This document shows positions 3,913 to 49,296 of a stretch of 54,732 bases of DNA, piece by piece. The notes below the pieces were generated by a model. It saw nothing but the letters and a program-made list of their open reading frames with translations. It was not told where the DNA came from and did not search any database. A program made the position numbers and the translations under genes. Positions within the stretch are counted from its first letter, which is position 1; each line of letters begins with the position of its first letter. Location: the NCBI GenBank assembly GCA_903888345.1, contig CAISTG010000053.1, positions 1-54,732 of the forward strand, given 5' to 3'. Source of the DNA: Candidatus Buchananbacteria bacterium. Lineage in GTDB: Bacteria; Patescibacteriota; Patescibacteriia; 2-01-FULL-39-33.

Positions 3913-5739
3913 TTATTTTTTAGCTTTAACTCCGAAAAGCCATTTATGCTGAGCGAATTTCCACTTAGAAACCAACAATAAGAATTGTCTAGTAATAAAG
4001 ATGGCTGAGAACATGGAAACAAAGATACCCAGAGCTAAAGTAAAGGCAAAACCCTTAATAATTGAAGAGCCAAACCAGAATAAAATGGCGCAAGTAATTA
4101 ATGATGAGACATTAGAATCACGAATTGAAGTCCAGGCGCGATTAAAACCATCGCTCATCGCTTTTGGCAAATCCTTGCCGGCACGCAATTCTTCTTTCAA
4201 TCTTTCAAAAATCAAGATATTAGCATCAACCGCCATACCAATAGACAGAATGTAACCGGTAATGCCAGCTAAGGTCAAAGTAACATGGAATAATTTAAAT
4301 AAGGCTAAAGAAATTGCAGTATAAATCAACAAGGCAATAACTGCCAGAACACCTGGCAAATGATAGAAAGCAACCATAAAGATGGCGACAATAATCAAGC
4401 CCCAAAGACCAGCAACTAAGCTTTTTTGCATCGCTTTTTGACCTAAAGTAGCACCGACAGTAGTTTGCGATACTAAAGTGACAGGAACTGGTAATGCGCC
4501 AGCATTCAAGCGTTGAGCTAATTTTTTGGCTTCGTCTTGGGTGAAGTTACCAGAAATAACCGCCTTGCCACCCAAAATTGGTTCATTAACCTTGGGTTCA
4601 GAAATGGCATAGCCGTCTAAGAAGATAGCGACCGGTTTGCCAACATTACGTGTGGTAATTTCAGAAAACAACTGAGCGCCTTCATTATCAAATTCTAAAG
4701 AAACTTGAGGTATCATGCTGGTTGAATCGTAATCAACGCTAGCTTTCTTTAAGTTCTTGCCGGATAATTGAGTGTTAACCCATTCAGACTGAACTGGCAC
4801 ACCAACATCAGCCGAAGTTTTCAATTTAAATAAGATGTGGCGAACATCAACCTCCCGAGCATCACCTGTTCCCCGTTCCCCTTCTTTCTTAATAATATGA
4901 TAGCCGAAGGAAGTTTTAACTAAATCCTGAGAAACTTCGCCTACTTTCAAGACATTAAAAATTTCATTATCAAATTCAGCGACCATTTGGCCCTTTTTGA
5001 CTCCTTGATACAGGCCGCCATTATCCTTGCTGCCAGTATCTTCACTGTATTGCTTAGCTAAAGAAGCGAAATCTTCGCCGGCTTTAACTTTTTGTAAAAC
5101 AGCAACAGCATTCTTACGAACTTCGAGGTTCATATCATCGAGCTGCTTTTGTTGATCAGTAGTCAATTGAGTTGCATTAGGATTTTCTTCTTTGAATTCC
5201 AATAATGGAGTTTCACCGATCATCTTAATGGCGCTATTAATATCATAAACACCGGCTAACTCGACATTAATGCGAGACTTGCCGCCAGTATTAGAAGTTT
5301 GCACAATTGGCTCAGAAACGCCCAAAGCATTCACGCGTCTTTCGATCACGTCTTTGGTACCATCTAAAGCGCTCTTTTGATCAGCTAACGGAATTTGGGA
5401 CAAGTCAGCATCGTAAGTCAACTGAGCACCACCAAGTAAGTCCAAACCTAAACGATAAGGAACACCATAAGTTTCCAAATCAATTTGTTTGATTGTTTTC
5501 CAGGTTAAGTGTTTGCTATTATCCAAGGCGGAAACCTCCAACTTAGGAAAAACTGCCAAGCTATTAACTACTGGAGTAGCAGTTAAGCCTTGATCAATTT
5601 TAAATGCAACAACATTTTTAACGCCAATCACATCAATGAAAGCGGTAAAAATAAACAACAAGGCTATTACTATAATAACCCAACGTAACCTTCCCCTCTG
5701 ACCGGGATTGAGGAACTTAGAAAATCGATTTTCTGCCAT
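3913..5739 (-). CDS. secD: Protein translocase subunit SecD with embedded parvulin-like domain
   Basis: 608 residues. TM1 is at about 20-40. The P1 region starts at YRLGLDLLGGAQLTYD (95-110). P1 resumes at MIPQVSLEFDNEGAQLF with FLDGYAISEP (374-382) and GNFTQDEA (397-404). Five TM segments follow, with SIGMAVDANILIFERLKEEL (499-518). Between LEFKEE (180-185) and the second half of P1 lies an insert (about 204-305) resembling PpiC/parvulin prolyl isomerases: GEDFASLAKQYSEDTGSKDNGG, MVAEFD, LKVGEVS, VKTSFGYHIIK. The usual first strand with its catalytic His (VRHILF, H301) comes last, as if permuted. The domain would sit outside the membrane where SecD handles emerging chains. Confidence 0.93.
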   Translation of the reverse strand: MAENRFSKFLNPGQRGRLRWVIIVIALLFIFTAFIDVIGVKNVVAFKIDQGLTATPVVNSLAVFPKLEVSALDNSKHLTWKTIKQIDLETYGVPYRLGLDLLGGAQLTYDADLSQIPLADQKSALDGTKDVIERRVNALGVSEPIVQTSNTGGKSRINVELAGVYDINSAIKMIGETPLLEFKEENPNATQLTTDQQKQLDDMNLEVRKNAVAVLQKVKAGEDFASLAKQYSEDTGSKDNGGLYQGVKKGQMVAEFDNEIFNVLKVGEVSQDLVKTSFGYHIIKKEGERGTGDAREVDVRHILFKLKTSADVGVPVQSEWVNTQLSGKNLKKASVDYDSTSMIPQVSLEFDNEGAQLFSEITTRNVGKPVAIFLDGYAISEPKVNEPILGGKAVISGNFTQDEAKKLAQRLNAGALPVPVTLVSQTTVGATLGQKAMQKSLVAGLWGLIIVAIFMVAFYHLPGVLAVIALLIYTAISLALFKLFHVTLTLAGITGYILSIGMAVDANILIFERLKEELRAGKDLPKAMSDGFNRAWTSIRDSNVSSLITCAILFWFGSSIIKGFAFTLALGIFVSMFSAIFITRQFLLLVSKWKFAQHKWLFGVKAKK

Positions 5740-23698: not shown

Positions 23699-24037
23699 TT
23701 AAAATTTACTCTGATGATTAAAATACTCCACGACGCCCAGAACGTCATTAGCACTGACACGACCCCAATCTTTGGCAGTCTTAATTTCAAAAGCATTTAA
23801 GTCAGTCACTACACCCACTGAAGTCAAACCATAACTACCAGGAGTAAGCGCGGCAACAACACCTGAACCACAGCTTTGACATCTAATAAACAGCAAATGA
23901 GCGCCTTCAGTTTCATCGAGAACTGCGGTTTCTAAGGGATTATGCTCCGTTTGGCACAAGGGGCAGCGAGAAACGAGTTTTAAGCCATCCAGGCCACGCT
24001 GACTGTTAAAGTTAGGTTGTCCAAAAATATCTCTCAT
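23699..24037 (-). CDS. Small zinc-ribbon protein, unknown
   Basis: 112 residues. SRCPLCQ (about 24-30) and IRCQSCGSG (about 52-60) form a four-cysteine zinc ribbon with a long insertion between knuckles. After it come a short beta stretch (TSVGVVTDLNAFEI) and a C-terminal helix. No TM. I recognise no named family. It is monocistronic with a terminator downstream. Confidence 0.7.
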   Translation of the reverse strand: MRDIFGQPNFNSQRGLDGLKLVSRCPLCQTEHNPLETAVLDETEGAHLLFIRCQSCGSGVVAALTPGSYGLTSVGVVTDLNAFEIKTAKDWGRVSANDVLGVVEYFNHQSKF

Positions 24038-24072: not shown

Positions 24073-24097
24073 AAAAAGAGACCGGGGAGGTCTCTTT
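24073..24097 (-). terminator. Terminator of the radical SAM operon
   Basis: Perfect 9-bp stem AAAGAGACC / GGTCTCTTT, then T run on the minus strand. Confidence 0.85.
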
Positions 24098-24105
24098 AAA
24101 GGTGC

Positions 24106-24588
24106 TTATTTCTTACTGGGATCAGGGATAGAGTAGCGTGCAACAATCATCGGCCCATCATCACCGCCAAAGCCCGTATCCGGACCGAAATCGGGAACGG
24201 GGGTGCAATTGTAATCAGGCGGTATCTTAATCAGTCCACTTAAGACCTCTTGCGGATCGTGATAGACGATGCGCTTCAGGTCGCGGTCATAATCTGCCAA
24301 TTTAGTATTGAAGGCAAAAATCATGGTCATCTTCTCATCAAACAAAACGCCATAGCTATTGAGCTGGCTACCGGATCCGATCACCTTTTCGGCCAGGAGC
24401 TTCAGCTCGGGGCCATAAGCAGCCAGAAAGTCATCAAGTAAACGACCGGTATCATTCTGAAACAGCAATAAATAGCAGGTCTTAAGTTCGTAAGATCCAG
24501 GCAACACCACATCAACGGAATGCTTCTTAGCTTCTTCCCGCATAATGTCAATGGCGTTCGGTGATTCTTCGGGTGAAATCTTTTGCAT
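24106..24588 (-). CDS. Radical SAM operon partner B, unknown
   Basis: 160 residues from ATG 24588, preceded by AAAGGA at 8 nt; the ATG three codons earlier overlaps the upstream stop (ATGA). It is a paralogue of the gene just upstream. Shared blocks: LLDDFLAAYGPELKLLAEKVIG, YGVLFDEKMTMIFAFNTKL, YHDPQEVLSGLI (key residues only) and a C-terminal VARYSIPDP after a Gly/Asp-rich stretch FGGDDG. No TM. It could be a substrate or an accessory protein of the radical SAM enzyme; sequence does not tell. Confidence 0.72.
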   Translation of the reverse strand: MQKISPEESPNAIDIMREEAKKHSVDVVLPGSYELKTCYLLLFQNDTGRLLDDFLAAYGPELKLLAEKVIGSGSQLNSYGVLFDEKMTMIFAFNTKLADYDRDLKRIVYHDPQEVLSGLIKIPPDYNCTPVPDFGPDTGFGGDDGPMIVARYSIPDPSKK

Positions 24589-24593
24589 CTTGA

Positions 24594-25118
24594 TCATCCT
24601 TTGTCGGTTGTTGATTGCTTAGGGTCTACGATGGCGTAACGAAAAACGATTCGCTGCCGCCGACCAAAACCACCACCTGATTGAGTCGGCAATTCGACTG
24701 GCGGCACATTGGTTAATTCCACAGTCTTAGCGTATTTCTCAATAAGCTCTGCTAAAACTTGTTGCGGCTCCTTATACACCACCTGACAAGTTTGCGGATC
24801 GTATCCAGCCAGCTTCATATTAAACGCAAAGATCATTCGCAGCTCACTGTCATAAAGAACACCGAAATCGTGCCATTCGATCTTATTACCAATCACCTTT
24901 TCCACCAACTGCTCCAATTCAGAGCCAAAGGCATTCAGAAAGTCTTCTAGCAAGTTGGAACGCACCCTAGTCACCACTAAATACATAGTTTGTGGGCCAC
25001 GATCAGTGTTAATAGTAATGGCTGCACCCATCGTCTTAATATTGCTATTAATGTTACCAATCGCATTAAAAGGAATTGGTAAACCAGTCGAATCAAGTTT
25101 TGGGTATTTCTTTGACAT
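24594..25118 (-). CDS. Radical SAM operon partner A, unknown
   Basis: 174 residues. GGGAGAAAATAAGCG before the ATG is a strong Shine-Dalgarno lying in the end of the radical SAM gene. Core blocks match partner B: LLEDFLNAF, LVEKVIGN, FGVLYDSELRMIFAFN, YKEPQQVLAELI. The C-terminal part is PTQSGGGFGRRQRIV then FRYAIVDP. The Gly-rich segment followed by a conserved RYxIxDP motif in both paralogues is the notable feature. Stop is TGA. Unknown family. Confidence 0.72.
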   Translation of the reverse strand: MSKKYPKLDSTGLPIPFNAIGNINSNIKTMGAAITINTDRGPQTMYLVVTRVRSNLLEDFLNAFGSELEQLVEKVIGNKIEWHDFGVLYDSELRMIFAFNMKLAGYDPQTCQVVYKEPQQVLAELIEKYAKTVELTNVPPVELPTQSGGGFGRRQRIVFRYAIVDPKQSTTDKG

Positions 25119-25121
25119 CGC

Positions 25122-26165
25122 TTATTTTCTCCCATGGTTGTCAGTTTCAAAATCGCGATAAACGCAAAAAGGCGCATCATGCAGTTTAGCATTAAACGAC
25201 CAAGACATGCTGGCGCAACCGCCGCGGCAAGTCTCCAATTTATCACAACAAGCACAGCGAGAACTTGGACTAACCGCTGACACGTCAAACTTTCGATTGA
25301 AACCAAAATAGTGATCATTACCCCAAATGTCTGCCAGCGACTGCTCGCGCACATTGGCAATAATAAACTGATCACCATAGAGCGACAAACAGGGCACTAC
25401 ATCGCCATTGGCCCGAATACCCAAGCCGGAAATCCCCGCTTGGCAACCTGGCCAATCGCCCGCTCGCGTCAAACCCAAATGATCAAATCCAAAACAATCC
25501 GCTCCAGTAATAACCATTTCCGGATAACGATGGCGCAAGCTGTACAACTCCAGACAAACTGCATTAAACTCTTGACGATCAAGAAGCTCATCAGAATCGC
25601 TCATGCGACCCATGGGTGCAGCAATCTGTATTTGCCAACCGGAAACACCAAGCGTGTGCAAGGTATGGCCAATCTGTGACAACTCGCGATAGTTCAATTT
25701 AGAAATCGTCGTGTTAACCACGGTCGGAATACCCGCCGCCACTAACCGACTAATTGTTTGAAGCGACTTAATCCAGGCCTGAGAATTTTGCCTGATGTAA
25801 TTATGAGTGTCTTTGTTGCCATCAATACTAACACCGATGGCATAAGGTTTAACGGTTGAAAATAACTCTAAATAGCGATCAGGCAATACGATACCATTTG
25901 TGATGATACCAAACCCTAAACCATTCAACCGGGCAGAAATCAGTAACGCATCAAAATCCTTTTTTAAGAACGCCTCACCGCCGGAGAAAACAATTTTTTC
26001 CGTGCCCAAGGCTGCCAATTCAGTAAAGACTCGCTGCCATTCCGACACCGATAATTCATTTCTTGAATCCGTAGTATCGCAGTCCGAACCACAATGAAGG
26101 CAGCGCAAATTACAACGCCTCGTCGTTTCCAGAACGACCGTATTCAACTGGTGTTTTTTCGACAT
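25122..26165 (-). CDS. Radical SAM protein with SPASM domain (peptide/protein maturase-like)
   Basis: 347 residues. Cluster motif CxxxCxxC is at C18, C22, C25; SGGEA, which binds SAM, at 61-65. The C-terminal SPASM domain has C241, C259 (after NGDVVP), C304, C306, C307, C313, C317 and C334, enough for two auxiliary 4Fe-4S clusters, with ADIWGNDHYFGFN between. SPASM enzymes such as PqqE, AlbA and anSME modify peptides or proteins. Two paralogous proteins follow within 3-6 nt. AGGAGCAATGTAA sets the ATG. The promoter is near-consensus. The substrate is inferred, not known. Confidence 0.9.
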   Translation of the reverse strand: MSKKHQLNTVVLETTRRCNLRCLHCGSDCDTTDSRNELSVSEWQRVFTELAALGTEKIVFSGGEAFLKKDFDALLISARLNGLGFGIITNGIVLPDRYLELFSTVKPYAIGVSIDGNKDTHNYIRQNSQAWIKSLQTISRLVAAGIPTVVNTTISKLNYRELSQIGHTLHTLGVSGWQIQIAAPMGRMSDSDELLDRQEFNAVCLELYSLRHRYPEMVITGADCFGFDHLGLTRAGDWPGCQAGISGLGIRANGDVVPCLSLYGDQFIIANVREQSLADIWGNDHYFGFNRKFDVSAVSPSSRCACCDKLETCRGGCASMSWSFNAKLHDAPFCVYRDFETDNHGRK

Positions 26166-26238: not shown

Positions 26239-26245
26239 CACTGGC

Positions 26246-37728: not shown

Positions 37729-40700
37729 TTATTTTTTATCCCCCAAAATATTCTTCGCTTTTAAGTAAGCAATCGTGGCATAGGCCGCCTTTTTCTCAAC
37801 CTCGGTTAAATCATTTTGTACTAATTCGATGATCTTTTCCATTAGGTCGATGGCAGCATACTTATCTTCAGAAACACCAACGGCCTCAAATCGACTCAGG
37901 AAGCCCTGCATCATTTGCATCAGTTTATTGCCAGCCGGAACATTGTCTTTTTCTGGCTGATTAAGTATGCGCTTACGTTGTCGCTCTACCGCGCCGGTCA
38001 ACTCAACCATCGCCTCAAGACGTTGATAGGGATTAGCCAAATCCAGTTTTGCTATTGGCAGCGCGGACTTTTCGCTCCGGGCATACCAATAAAATTCAAA
38101 TAAGCGCTCAATAACCACTAACTGCGATTCTTTGACTTGATATTTCAGGATACTATTTAGAGTGCGCTCCAATTCGCCGTTAGACATTTTTCGTACTGTC
38201 TCCACATCGACGTGATTTAAGTTATCGATAATTTTTTGAATTTCTGCCAATTCTAAATTGGCCAACTTTTTTTCCTGACTTACTGCTTTAGACTCGCGCT
38301 GTGCAAGCGATGGCAGAGAAACCCCCTCGACGCCGTCAGGAGTACCATCAATACTGATGACTCGATTATGCCCCTCATTATCCGGCCACAACACGAAGGC
38401 CGTGGCATGCGCATTCTTCACACAAATCTTTTTATTGTCCGTTCTAAATCCGGTAATTACACCACTGGGAAAGCCAGCCCGCCGCAAAAATATCGCGGCC
38501 ACCTGAGCGAAATCAGCACAAACACCGGCAAAACGCTTGCCCTCGTACGCCGTCGAACCGGGATTTTTCTGCTTAAGTTCCTCGAGCCGCTGTTCCATAA
38601 TGTAAAGTTGCTCTTCGAGCGACTTGTCGTCTTTTAATGGACTGACTTCTTGATTATTGTTGTCATAATAGCCTAAATCGCGCACCAGGCGTTCAATTGA
38701 CATCACCTGCTCTTTCGGGCTCTTACCGGCGATAGCTGCTAATAACTCATGATCTAAATCATCAGGTAATCCTGCTAATTCGGTGGACATAAACCGCATA
38801 CCAATACCCTGCAATTGTTTTAAATAATATAGATATTCCGCTCCCGATAAATTTCGCATCGGCTCTGGCGCCTCAGAAACCGCCAAAGAATAGACGATTT
38901 TCTCCACGGCCTTCGGCTTATTAACAACCGCAGACTCGCCCAAGACATTAGTAACTACTTCTAAATCATACTCCTTGCCAGTCGCATCAAAGCCTTTAAC
39001 TCGTTCATTAATTATTTTAGCCTCCAGCGGCTTAGGTAAGGAAACTTGATTGATTTTTTTGACATTAGGAATCGTGGCCGTTGTCTCTCTAACTGGTTCT
39101 GATAGCCGAGTATCGACATTAAAACCGATCTGACCCCAATATTTATTCTCTGAACGATACTGGCCCAAAATATTGCTAACCACAATGCCTTCAATAGGAT
39201 CACGAAATTCCATAATCTCGCGTTCATCAGTTAACTGCTCCGCGCCACCACCCGCTAATTTACCTTCGAATCTCCGTTCGAGATAATTTTCTGGTTGTTG
39301 TTTACCTTGCTTAGTCTGTTTACCTTCCAGGCCAGCGTAACCAGGAAAACCGCGCCAGGACTCTTGTTGTCGAGCCGCAGCTATCTCGGGGAAGATTTTC
39401 AGGGCAATTTTTTCCGCAAAAACCTTAGTCAACGCACGACCGCGCTTAGCTGCCATCGTTTCTATAAATAGCTTCGGTTGCTTACCAATTAATTTTGATA
39501 AGACACGCGCCACCACTGGTGAACCGCTAACCATGTCTTGTAAACTTTTTTTCCGCGCCAGATTCGCCTCAATTTCACCCTTAACGCCGCCAAATTCCTG
39601 CTGAATCCCCTCAAGTGTGGGATGATGCAGTAGATTAAGTGTTCTCAATTGATTTTGTTCTTCTAACGTCAATTCTCTTTCATTATTTTCATTCTCTTTT
39701 AATTTCAACAACAGATATGTATATTCTGGATTAGCAAAGCTTTTAGCTAACGATCTACCGTCTTCATCCATAATTTCATCTCTTAGCTCCCAAGCGCGTG
39801 CACTATTTAACCCGGTACAATATTCTAATATTCGTCGCTTTACTTGGTTGCTCCTATCTAATTTCTGTGTTTTTCTAACTATTTCATCCCGCATCTGCCA
39901 GGCTCGATTATTATCCAATCCAGCTAAACTTTCAACAATGACATCTACCTCATCCATTTTAACAAACCCCATATCATCTATGAAACTATGACTGGTCATG
40001 TAACCATCCCGTAACCGCCAAGCCATGATACTATCTAAGCCAGCTAAACTTTCAAATATTTTACCCTTATCTATATCTACATTGCCCTCAAGTTTGTCCC
40101 TCATCTCCCAGGCACGCTCATTATCAAGACCTCTCAAGCTTACGAACTGAGATTCATATTCGACTTTATATTTACCGGCAAAAAAATCATCGCGCATCTT
40201 CCAGGCACGTTCAGAATTTAACCCCGCTAAACCTTTTACTAGCCGGTTTTTTAAAATATGTATCCTAAACTCTTTATGCTGATAATCGTCATTTTCCATT
40301 CTCTCTAATAACTGTGCCCGCATCTGCCAGGCCCGGTCACTGTCTAGACCGGATAAACTAATAACCAAGCCAGATTCGTGATCCCAATTATTAAATACTT
40401 CATCACGCATCCGCCATGCCTCCTCCGAATCTATTCCTGCCAAGCCCGCTAAGACCGAGTCCATAAATGGGCCTTTTTGTCGTAGTAAATCAGCACGCAA
40501 TTCGTGCGCACGTTTACTGTCGAAAACAGCCAAATTTGAAGCAACAAAATAATCATCGCTACCATTATTTCCATGACGACTTAATATTTTTTCCAAATAA
40601 TCTAGCGATTTATCTTCGAACTTTTCAAAATCAGATTCTTTTTTTTCTTGATCATCGCCTTCGATTTTCTTGATAAAGCGAGCTCTTAATTCCTCCATAT

Positions 40701-42996
40701 GTAATGGGCTCTGTACTTTTAGGCTCATTGCAATATCAATGTGTCTTTGGTCCTTTCCAATCAATTGAAGTTCACCATCTTCATAATACAGTTCAGAAAT
40801 ACTATTCAATCTAGTAAATTCGTCAGTAATAAAGTCACCAGTGTCATGATCCATTAAGATGTCGCTACCGTTTTTATCCATTCTTCTAATTTTCATTCCT
40901 CCCACCTGAAATCCACCTCTTATGCCTTCCCCCAAACTAATGAGCTTACCTTCAATTTGTTTTGATTTTTTCTTTTCAATTATTCCGCCTTCGATTTTTT
41001 TTATGAATCCTGCGCCCTGCCCTTGAAAGCTACTTTCAATTTCAATGCCTGAATACATTTGCAAATTATCAGAAATTCTTTTGCATTTGTAAAATACGTG
41101 GCCATTTTCATAAGTAATATCTTTGACATCATAAACTGCTGGAAATTCCTCTGTAACCTCATGAGAAGTGTCAGCATCAACAAATACACATTCATCACCA
41201 TTATTTATCTCCATTAGTCTAATCTTCATTCCACCAAGTTGCCAAGTATTATCACCTAAAAATTTACCATCTATTTCCATCGATTCTTTCTTTTCAACCT
41301 TCTTGCCTTCTAATTCTCTGGCTAGGTCATCATCAACTATAACAACAACACCTCTTTCAAGCTGCTGAATTTTCTCCTCTTTACTGCGATAGCCCAATAG
41401 CTTCAACTCTTTGCTTTCTTTGTTATACTGAACTTGGTTAATATGATAATAAGGACGCCAGTGCATTCCTCCAATAATCTTGCCGTCGACTTCAAAAAAC
41501 TGCTGTTCCGATTGTTTGTTGCCCCGCTGCGGAGTAACTTTCACTACTTTCACCCGCTTATTAGGAAAGTCAAAATATTCTTCATCTCTTTCCTGAGTTA
41601 ATCGGCTTTCACCTCCTTCAACCGAGATAATATTATCTTGCTTCTTTTTTTCTGCGTCCGTTAACCGTCTTATTTTATCGACATCCAAAGGCACCCGACG
41701 AGATTCTACCTGCCCATTTTTTTTAAGCTGACCAGTAATCGTTAAAATTCCACCTTCCCTAAAGATGCTAGTCAAAGAAGTAAATTCATCAAATTCCTCG
41801 CTGAGCATTTCAACTTTTTGATTAATTATTGACCAAATTTTTTGCCGTTCCTTTGTTTTATCTTCATCCTTCAATATGACAAATATTTTATCACCTATTC
41901 TATCAAAACTAAAACCAGACCCAATTGATTTATCTTTACCCTTAAACTCAGCTAATTCTAATGTCTTATCATCCCACGCATCTGACTCAGCTTTTTCTTC
42001 CTCTTCTTTATTCTCTAAGTCCACCACTTCATATCGATCAGCTTTCAATTCAACTTTCCGACCACTAGCTTCCAGCGACTTATTTAATTTCTTAGCTAAC
42101 CCGCGCTCCGCTTCTGCACCTTTAATGCCGGCAGTAACACTGGTATATAGCGCAGCATTCAAACGAGGCTCAATTTCTCCAAAGGGAATACTTAAACGTT
42201 CACACTCCGCTTCAATCACCTCTTTAACGGTAAAAAATTTAGAAGTGTCATTAGTAAAATAATTACCACCAAGATTTGCCGGTTCTCCGGCTAATTGATG
42301 AGCAGTTAAATATTTCTTCAAAATATCTTCAACCGTTGCAGCATAGTAGGCTGGCCGTATTAACTTTTCATATTGCCCCAGTGCCTCATCGGCTAGTTCT
42401 TCGGCAGATTTCAGTTGACGAATTTCACCCCGAAAACCCTTGACTCTTTCACCCAGAGGATATTCTCGCGGCTGGGTCTGTGGCGCAAACTCGCGCGTGA
42501 TTAACAGTGGCGCATAATAATCATTTACCTTACTTATAACTTTAGTCTTTGTCTGGGCGTCACGCGCCTGCTGGGCACGCTCAGCGAATTGATCCCACTC
42601 ACCTGTTTTTCGCGCTCTCAACAACTCATCATAACGACTAGCCATGATACTAAATATTGGCCGATTGAGCGGATTATTATCTATCGCGCGGCTAACCTTT
42701 TCTTCGGTAATAATATTAACCAATTCCGTAAAAACTTCAGGGTGTTTAATAGTAAAGCCAGCCGAGAGAACTGCCTCAGCTAATTCCACTCGCGAAAGTC
42801 CGGCTCGCTCCGCCAAAATCAACCCATCTTCAACTGAATGTTGTAAAACATTTTCAGTGCCAGCATAAACCTCAGACCGATTTTTTCCAGCCAAAACTGA
42901 CGCGAAAAGTACTTCGCGTTTTTGGCGGTCAATCGGAGGTTTGCGCTCAATTACCGACGGCGCATTTTGATCTTTATCGATCGCTTTTTCGGGCAC
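37729..42996 (-). CDS. Giant transglutaminase-like repeat protein
   Basis: 1755 residues, no signal peptide or TM. N-terminal 1-370 is helical and charged. About 370-760 holds at least four beta repeats (cores like DGKIIGG...VQYNKESKELKLLG and DITYENGHVFYKC). About 815-1080 has eight copies of a helical motif AGLDSxRAWxMRDE, spaced 25-45 residues. Near the C-terminus a transglutaminase-like core has Cys1493 (AGVCADFAQVAA), His1530 (NAHATAF) and Asp1550 (ISIDGTP), the expected triad. It could be a cytoplasmic protease or crosslinker with a long scaffold. Function unknown. It is monocistronic. Confidence 0.82.
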   Translation of the reverse strand: MPEKAIDKDQNAPSVIERKPPIDRQKREVLFASVLAGKNRSEVYAGTENVLQHSVEDGLILAERAGLSRVELAEAVLSAGFTIKHPEVFTELVNIITEEKVSRAIDNNPLNRPIFSIMASRYDELLRARKTGEWDQFAERAQQARDAQTKTKVISKVNDYYAPLLITREFAPQTQPREYPLGERVKGFRGEIRQLKSAEELADEALGQYEKLIRPAYYAATVEDILKKYLTAHQLAGEPANLGGNYFTNDTSKFFTVKEVIEAECERLSIPFGEIEPRLNAALYTSVTAGIKGAEAERGLAKKLNKSLEASGRKVELKADRYEVVDLENKEEEEKAESDAWDDKTLELAEFKGKDKSIGSGFSFDRIGDKIFVILKDEDKTKERQKIWSIINQKVEMLSEEFDEFTSLTSIFREGGILTITGQLKKNGQVESRRVPLDVDKIRRLTDAEKKKQDNIISVEGGESRLTQERDEEYFDFPNKRVKVVKVTPQRGNKQSEQQFFEVDGKIIGGMHWRPYYHINQVQYNKESKELKLLGYRSKEEKIQQLERGVVVIVDDDLARELEGKKVEKKESMEIDGKFLGDNTWQLGGMKIRLMEINNGDECVFVDADTSHEVTEEFPAVYDVKDITYENGHVFYKCKRISDNLQMYSGIEIESSFQGQGAGFIKKIEGGIIEKKKSKQIEGKLISLGEGIRGGFQVGGMKIRRMDKNGSDILMDHDTGDFITDEFTRLNSISELYYEDGELQLIGKDQRHIDIAMSLKVQSPLHMEELRARFIKKIEGDDQEKKESDFEKFEDKSLDYLEKILSRHGNNGSDDYFVASNLAVFDSKRAHELRADLLRQKGPFMDSVLAGLAGIDSEEAWRMRDEVFNNWDHESGLVISLSGLDSDRAWQMRAQLLERMENDDYQHKEFRIHILKNRLVKGLAGLNSERAWKMRDDFFAGKYKVEYESQFVSLRGLDNERAWEMRDKLEGNVDIDKGKIFESLAGLDSIMAWRLRDGYMTSHSFIDDMGFVKMDEVDVIVESLAGLDNNRAWQMRDEIVRKTQKLDRSNQVKRRILEYCTGLNSARAWELRDEIMDEDGRSLAKSFANPEYTYLLLKLKENENNERELTLEEQNQLRTLNLLHHPTLEGIQQEFGGVKGEIEANLARKKSLQDMVSGSPVVARVLSKLIGKQPKLFIETMAAKRGRALTKVFAEKIALKIFPEIAAARQQESWRGFPGYAGLEGKQTKQGKQQPENYLERRFEGKLAGGGAEQLTDEREIMEFRDPIEGIVVSNILGQYRSENKYWGQIGFNVDTRLSEPVRETTATIPNVKKINQVSLPKPLEAKIINERVKGFDATGKEYDLEVVTNVLGESAVVNKPKAVEKIVYSLAVSEAPEPMRNLSGAEYLYYLKQLQGIGMRFMSTELAGLPDDLDHELLAAIAGKSPKEQVMSIERLVRDLGYYDNNNQEVSPLKDDKSLEEQLYIMEQRLEELKQKNPGSTAYEGKRFAGVCADFAQVAAIFLRRAGFPSGVITGFRTDNKKICVKNAHATAFVLWPDNEGHNRVISIDGTPDGVEGVSLPSLAQRESKAVSQEKKLANLELAEIQKIIDNLNHVDVETVRKMSNGELERTLNSILKYQVKESQLVVIERLFEFYWYARSEKSALPIAKLDLANPYQRLEAMVELTGAVERQRKRILNQPEKDNVPAGNKLMQMMQGFLSRFEAVGVSEDKYAAIDLMEKIIELVQNDLTEVEKKAAYATIAYLKAKNILGDKK
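39760..40560 (-). repeat. Tandem coding repeats of the GLDSxRAWxMR motif
   Basis: Eight protein-level repeats inside the giant gene: variants FDSKRAHELR, GIDSEEAWRMR, GLDSDRAWQMR, GLNSERAWKMR, GLDNERAWEMR, GLDSIMAWRLR, GLDNNRAWQMR, GLNSARAWELR. Confidence 0.85.
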
Positions 42997-47329: not shown

Positions 47330-47377
47330 GGAATCCAGAATTTTTGAACTGGATTCCTGGTCAAGCCAGGAATGACG
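47330..47377. repeat. REP-like palindrome, infA-rpmJ gap
   Basis: GGAATCCAG...CTGGATTCC followed by CCTGGTCAAGCCAGGAATGACG: two nested inverted repeats. Confidence 0.65.
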
Positions 47378-49224: not shown

Positions 49225-49296
49225 GTCATTCCGGGCTTGACCCGGAATCTGAGCTATACGATTCAGTCTGGATTCCGGGTCAAGCCCGGAATGACG
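49225..49296. repeat. Paired REP-like palindromes
   Basis: GTCATTCCGGGCTTGACCCGG (49225 on) and the inverted CCGGGTCAAGCCCGGAATGAC (to 49294), 20 bp apart; each is itself a CGGG / CCCG hairpin. Confidence 0.72.

Follow-up and report, generated by a model that had tools for sequence, protein, structure and literature searches.

A three-gene unit in a 54,732-nucleotide stretch of “Candidatus Buchananbacteria” DNA (hereafter, the window; contig C53 of a 1.39-Mb genome) encodes a radical SAM (rSAM)/SPASM enzyme and two paralogous proteins, P1 and P2, and is most readily interpreted as a splicease-like system. Comparison of related gene neighborhoods indicates that P1 and P2 are very probably the substrates of the enzyme. 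That the reaction is excision of tyramine from a Tyr residue near their C termini, despite the presence of Ala or Ser in the position of the published Gly, is the favored but distinctly less secure part of this interpretation and relies on analogy with PlpXY. The original prediction, made from the DNA alone, knew of no described system with this layout; it missed the spliceotide/splicease systems indicated by both the enzyme and the Tyr core.

The genes are located on the minus strand in the order rSAM-P1-P2 (Table 1), with a 3-nt gap between the first two. Two start codons are available for P2, one at position 24597, which creates a 4-nt overlap with P1, and the other at position 24588, which leaves a 5-nt gap, has the better-spaced Shine-Dalgarno sequence (AAAGGA), and corresponds to the version in the original prediction. 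Since terminator-like sites are found on both sides of the trio, the second one being at positions 26243 to 26224 between the enzyme gene and the upstream RodA-like gene, the three genes look like a single self-contained unit; such sites number 7 against 3.0 expected in shuffled sequences. No protease, transporter, or additional small gene belongs to this unit. The adjoining minus-strand gene (positions 23699 to 24037), which lies behind the terminator-like hairpin, codes for a 112-aa protein with two CxxC pairs and no above-cutoff family match.

Table 1. Coordinates of the rSAM-P1-P2 unit in the window
Feature	Coordinates	Strand	Evidence
rSAM/SPASM enzyme (347 aa)	25122..26165	-	Pfam Radical_SAM and SPASM; top NCBIfam matches; tree; Shine-Dalgarno AGGAG at 26178-26174
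P1 (174 aa), proposed substrate	24594..25118	-	40% identity to P2; homolog beside a 44%-identical rSAM enzyme in genome G324
P2 (163 aa), proposed substrate	24106..24597	-	similarity to P1; alternative start at 24588 gives 160 aa
P1 tail core R160-Y161-A-I-V-D-P166	24621..24641	-	one of two pattern matches in the genome; V158, R160, Y161, and P166 invariant in three partners
P2 tail core R-Y-S-I-P-D-P	24118..24138	-	P1/P2 comparison; genome pattern search; three-partner alignment
Intrinsic-terminator-like hairpin (9 pairs, T-rich tail)	24075..24097	-	directly 3' of P2

The G+C content of the operon genes (0.43 to 0.47) is slightly above the window mean of 0.41 but overlaps that of the neighboring prmC and EamA-like genes (0.43 to 0.44), and the enzyme is absent from the same-genus genome that was searched; horizontal transfer of the operon was considered on these grounds and rejected, and the data are suggestive only of patchy gain or loss. 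Elsewhere in the window, a CarS-like protein of the CDP-archaeol synthase family (PF01864, 4.4e-32) is encoded on the plus strand of this bacterial contig (positions 5906 to 6454), and a 1,755-aa open reading frame (ORF) on the minus strand (positions 37729 to 42996) has a transglutaminase-like core near residues 1478 to 1537 as its sole Pfam match. A palindromic repeat with perfect 25-nt arms (positions 49225 to 49295) has a related copy roughly 1.9 kb from it (positions 47349 to 47377) and looks like a dispersed repeat element.

The enzyme matches the Pfam domains Radical_SAM (5.7e-20) and SPASM (3.8e-10). At least eight C-terminal cysteines had been predicted, and its C-terminal half indeed contains nine (positions 224, 241, 259, 304, 306, 307, 313, 317, and 334), of which seven (241, 259, 304, 307, 313, 317, and 334) are invariant among eight relatives, as are Cys18, Cys22, and Cys25 of the radical SAM CxxxCxxC motif. 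The seven invariant residues fit the SPASM spacing, and the enzyme has both the cysteine set and the CxxxCxxC motif expected of a PlpX-type splicease. Its three best NCBIfam matches, all below cutoff, are TIGR03913 (GDL; 162.9 bits versus an equivalog cutoff of 591.75), TIGR04133 (159.5 bits; hypothetical equivalog cutoff, 425), and TIGR04103 (159.2 bits; equivalog cutoff, 725), the last of which we take to include PlpX; heme-type families (AhbD, NirJ2) score 129 bits or less. TIGR04103 and TIGR03913 were among the best three profiles for all eight Tyr-core-linked enzymes scanned and were absent, at E <= 1e-30, from both comparison enzymes. In its own genome, the enzyme is the sole representative of its kind; below it, the clade profile gave only partial matches (E >= 2.7e-14).

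P1 and P2 are 40% identical and have in common the motifs [FY]GVL[YF]D....MIFAFN and RY[AS]IxDP (RYAIVDP in P1 and RYSIPDP in P2), as expected from the predicted pair of related 174- and 160-residue proteins closely following the enzyme. A protein search of the source genome found these two copies only (E = 5e-24 for P2). At the DNA level, the RY[AS]IxDP pattern matched the 1.39-Mb sequence twice, at the two tails, while the reversed-pattern control gave no matches. The third family member, encoded in genome G324 and reached only through the enzyme search, is a distant homolog (E = 5e-9 in pairwise BLASTP with P1). The tails of the three proteins (IVFRYAIVDP in P1, IVARYSIPDP in P2, and VVVRYALVEKP in the G324 homolog, each followed by a few residues) share the element V-x-R-Y. 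The Gly-rich tail emphasized in the original prediction is real in P1 (GGGFG) and P2 (GFGGDDG) but scarcely present in the third protein, and V-x-R-Y is the element that is conserved. Further Tyr-[AG] pairs in the protein bodies (Y129 in P1; Y58 and Y79 in P2, in the 160-aa numbering) are not conserved between P1 and P2.

The partner proteins showed little resemblance to known families. None of the three had a meaningful Pfam match (for P1 and P2, this includes DUF1843), and profile comparisons of the partners with the Nostoc Nif11 precursor and with the 71-aa Nostoc protein that occupies the place of PlpY gave no match. Strongly hydrophobic stretches are absent from P1 and P2 (19-residue Kyte-Doolittle maxima of 0.67 and 1.05). 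With P1 as the query, no homologs were detected in viral contigs or, apart from its own genome, among 95 relatives, matches in PDB were at chance level (best E, 0.41), and PHROGs yielded nothing; scanning the genome_contigs collection with a two-row P1/P2 profile revealed no homologs either. The AlphaFold2 models are poor (mean pLDDT of 43.0 for P1 and 40.6 for P2), and the low-confidence predicted tails would agree with a flexible core, without counting as evidence for one. Partner homologs were found in 2 of 379 genomes of the phylum, in both cases beside an rSAM gene, so the refuting condition set in the original prediction, partners that never co-occur with radical SAM genes, did not hold in this small sample; the three-row profile used in this search includes the third member, which makes that protein's own E value circular. 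The enzyme and the partner family remain linked in two distant families of the phylum.

Enzyme-profile searches retrieved clade-like enzymes from 4 of 285 and 4 of 380 genomes of the class and from 3 of 379 genomes of the phylum; each of these counts includes the window's own genome, the genome draws overlap, and one of the three phylum matches, from genome G450, was placed by the tree outside the group. The genome_contigs scan added loci from Nealsonbacteria (L011), Melainabacteria (L014), Thorarchaeota (L013), and Thermoplasmata (L015) and 65 distant loci, and plasmid records contributed the named XYG-linked families. The search for viral copies returned three weak rSAM matches (24 to 26% identity over part of the query) with no partner. 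In a 27-row tree, in which the Nostoc TIGR04103 enzyme stands in for PlpX, the window enzyme belongs to a five-row Patescibacteria clade (support, 100/99) nested within a 14-row group (91/88, slightly short of the support that the tree tool stars) that unites it with XYG-linked enzymes, as would be expected of a PlpX-type protein. The outgroup and the remaining SPASM enzymes lie outside this group, except that the placement of the two TIGR04133 enzymes was not resolved. Read by eye, 12 of the 14 rows have an XYG or XYA neighbor, the exceptions being L015 and L087.

The principal evidence for the substrate role comes from what is encoded beside these enzymes. By our own reading, 14 of 16 loci carry a neighbor with a Tyr core, with no clear one at L015 and L087, and the neighbors have different bodies and a common X-Tyr-[Gly/Ala/Ser] core, after which hydrophobic or Pro residues come in most cases. 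Within the Patescibacteria clade, whose enzymes are 36 to 44% identical to that of the window and have KYG, KYA, or RYA neighbors, the long partner family is found only in G324; the others have short peptides. Beside the sister enzymes L010, L011, and L012 (36 to 42% identity), no long partner was seen in the stretches read, and a Tyr-core peptide is present: a 74-aa peptide with MIKYAPI (L004/L010), a 65-aa peptide with LIKYAPIKPR (L005/L012), and, in the Nealsonbacteria locus L011, a single 88-aa protein with two sites, KYGPTEP and KYGTVVP, that account for both of its Tyr residues. The X residue is Lys or Arg in all seven core motifs of the clade, which includes both XYG (L011) and XYA (L010, L012, the window, and L091). 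At L005, also from Buchananbacteria, a 144-aa ORF with no clear kin (positions 2534 to 2968) is located between the splicease-like enzyme and the KYA peptide.

More distant loci follow the same pattern, with cores such as VIEYGLPNAP (L009), VTKYGVYFP (L014, Melainabacteria), ALYGLPPELF (the Nif11 precursor of the Nostoc TIGR04103 system), and MYG (Agathobacter), as well as EYG and CYG in the Parabacteroides and Treponema lipoproteins. The motif Tyr is the sole Tyr in four peptides (L010, L012, L009, and L084). DUF1843 triplets accompany the GDL enzyme of Azospirillum (LYG and PYG, with MYM in one of the three copies) and a GDL-like enzyme of Aureibacter (535 bits versus the cutoff of 592). The latter triplet, encoded at positions 2150 to 2863 of locus L086 on an Aureibacter tunicatorum plasmid, combines LYA, MYA, and PYG and provides an example of natural variation of the Gly position inside one operon. 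In Thorarchaeota archaeon C14-20 (L013, positions 4117 to 5236), a splicease-like enzyme is followed by three membrane-type proteins, each with a hydrophobic stretch and a C-terminal Y[TL]PGT[WLR]YAS[LI]xP motif, a possible archaeal XYA system.

The pattern Y[GAS].{0,4}P, sought in small (40- to 200-aa) same-strand ORFs no more than 150 nt away, was found at 12 of 15 Tyr-group loci and 11 of 49 control loci (Fisher p of about 1e-4), the denominators being the loci with such an ORF among 16 Tyr-group loci and 68 control rSAM loci (the 65 loci L016 to L080 plus L006, L089, and L096). Because the pattern was drawn up after the positives, the window among them, had been seen, this p value is optimistic. 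At 300 nt, the counts for small ORFs were 12/16 and 14/61. When ORFs of all sizes up to 700 nt away were admitted, discrimination was poor (16/16 versus 47/68), and for Y[GA] in small ORFs over the same distance, p was 0.05. Only small, close neighbors discriminate, and the enrichment is support, not proof.

Morinaka (2018) reportedly described the PlpX/PlpY splicease of Pleurocapsa and spliceotides. PlpXY removes tyramine (C8H9NO) from XYG sites and links the carbonyl left over from the Tyr to the carbonyl before it (PMC10533398; PMC11002830; PMC10373908). Its natural sites are MYG and LYG, it also accepts an engineered GYG site, and published tag cores end in YGLPI and YGVVFP (PMC10533398); PlpX has been studied together with PlpY, an RRE protein (PMC11002830). 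The ends of these tag cores resemble YGLPNAP of L009, YGVYFP of L014, and YSIPDP of P2. As in PlpX/PlpY, a SPASM enzyme with TIGR04103 among its best three profiles is encoded in the window next to proteins in which an X-Tyr-small residue core precedes a hydrophobic or Pro context, and the window tails fit the PlpXY site in these respects. However, the tails read RYA and RYS instead of the strict XYG, the unit has neither a Nif11 nor a nitrile hydratase-like (NHLP) leader and neither a PlpY-like RRE partner nor a third small gene, the enzyme is 347 aa long versus 420 aa for the Nostoc TIGR04103 enzyme, and the proposed substrates, at 160 to 174 aa with the core at the extreme C terminus, differ from those of spliceotide systems. 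The GDL maturases (TIGR03913) of Azospirillum and Aureibacter, the best NCBIfam match, likewise have small paralogous neighbors with LYG, PYG, LYA, or MYA, but these cores are at the N terminus of 56- to 64-aa DUF1843 proteins, and the window enzyme scores 163 bits against 592. In the TIGR04133 systems of Bacteroidales and Treponema, the substrate-like neighbor is, as here, a full-size protein, but its EYG or CYG core is near the N terminus of a lipoprotein, and the tree does not settle where these enzymes stand with respect to that of the window. The unit does not qualify for the PlpX, GDL, or TIGR04133 family, given its scores, the missing leader and PlpY partner, and the departure from strict XYG. 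A full-text literature search turned up no account of such systems in Patescibacteria or of XYA/XYS sites; the survey of splicease diversity reportedly made by Scott et al. (2022; Chem 8:2659), which was outside this search, may include relatives.

In the proposed mechanism, the SPASM enzyme would bind P1 and P2, whose folded bodies would replace the leader, and attack the R-Y-[A/S]-I-x-D-P tail motif at its Tyr; as in PlpXY, the tyramine part (net C8H9NO) would be cut out and the chain rejoined, leaving an Arg-derived alpha-keto-beta-amino residue about 8 to 13 residues from the C termini of two soluble proteins. P1 and P2 are most likely the substrates because the body of the neighbor changes within the clade while the Tyr core stays. 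This favors the C-terminal modification suggested in the original prediction, with the Tyr of RY[AS], and not the Gly-rich stretch, as the residue at issue. The alternative raised there, an accessory complex of P1 and P2 that would serve recognition or delivery while the true substrate is encoded elsewhere in the genome, is improbable: it would suit their length, which is large for precursor peptides, the lack of a separate RRE protein, and the precedent of PlpY, but the sister enzymes have no such partner in the stretches read and keep their short Tyr-core peptides, RY[AS]IxDP occurs in the partners themselves and, as that pattern, nowhere else in the genome, and the Nostoc protein in the PlpY position has no profile similarity to the partners. 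Still less credible, indeed very improbable, is cofactor or small-molecule chemistry (of the heme, quinone, or tungsten-cofactor SPASM type) with the downstream genes as unrelated hitchhikers. The weaker matches to the heme-synthesis families AhbD and NirJ2 point that way, but they rank below all three XYG-linked families, and the partners accompany the enzyme in two distant families.

The nature of the reaction is a closer question. The tyramine-excision step rests on homology and is weakened because Ala or Ser stands for Gly; the lack of a PlpY/RRE protein and of a Nif11/NHLP leader and scores far below the splicease-linked cutoffs also count against it, as do the additional Tyr-[AG] pairs in the bodies of P1 and P2, the two loci with no clear Tyr core (L015 and L087), and the support of the 14-row group. 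Since related SPASM enzymes catalyze many reactions and the published PlpX motif is XYG, P1 and P2 could instead be substrates at the same Tyr for crosslinking, oxidation, C-C cleavage without rejoining, or epimerization. This alternative deserves to be kept in mind as the lesser possibility: the Gly objection is softened because XYA occurs naturally beside the Aureibacter GDL-like enzyme, where LYA, MYA, and PYG are mixed at one locus, and because XYG and XYA coexist in the well-supported Patescibacteria clade, which suggests that Gly and Ala are exchangeable. Tyramine excision thus remains the preferred reading.

With Lys or Arg as the X residue in the cores of the clade, the product of excision would be an Arg or Lys keto-amide, plausibly a reversible warhead against trypsin-like or other Arg/Lys-specific proteases; a review credits beta-residues with conferring protease inhibition (PMC10373908). 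It is a tentative proposal that spliceases of Patescibacteria read Lys/Arg-Tyr-Ala/Ser/Gly rather than Xaa-Tyr-Gly and install Arg- or Lys-derived alpha-keto-beta-amino residues on the C-terminal tails of leaderless soluble proteins of 160 to 174 aa, which would act as covalent inhibitors of such proteases. The constant Tyr core on swapped bodies predicts the substrate site in a way that can be tested directly. If the interpretation is right, radical SAM protein-backbone splicing would extend to the reduced-genome Patescibacteria, work on proteins with no recognizable leader, and accept Ala or Ser after the Tyr, which would give a broader rule for finding proteins that contain beta-amino acids and a larger set of tags for tyramine-excision labeling.
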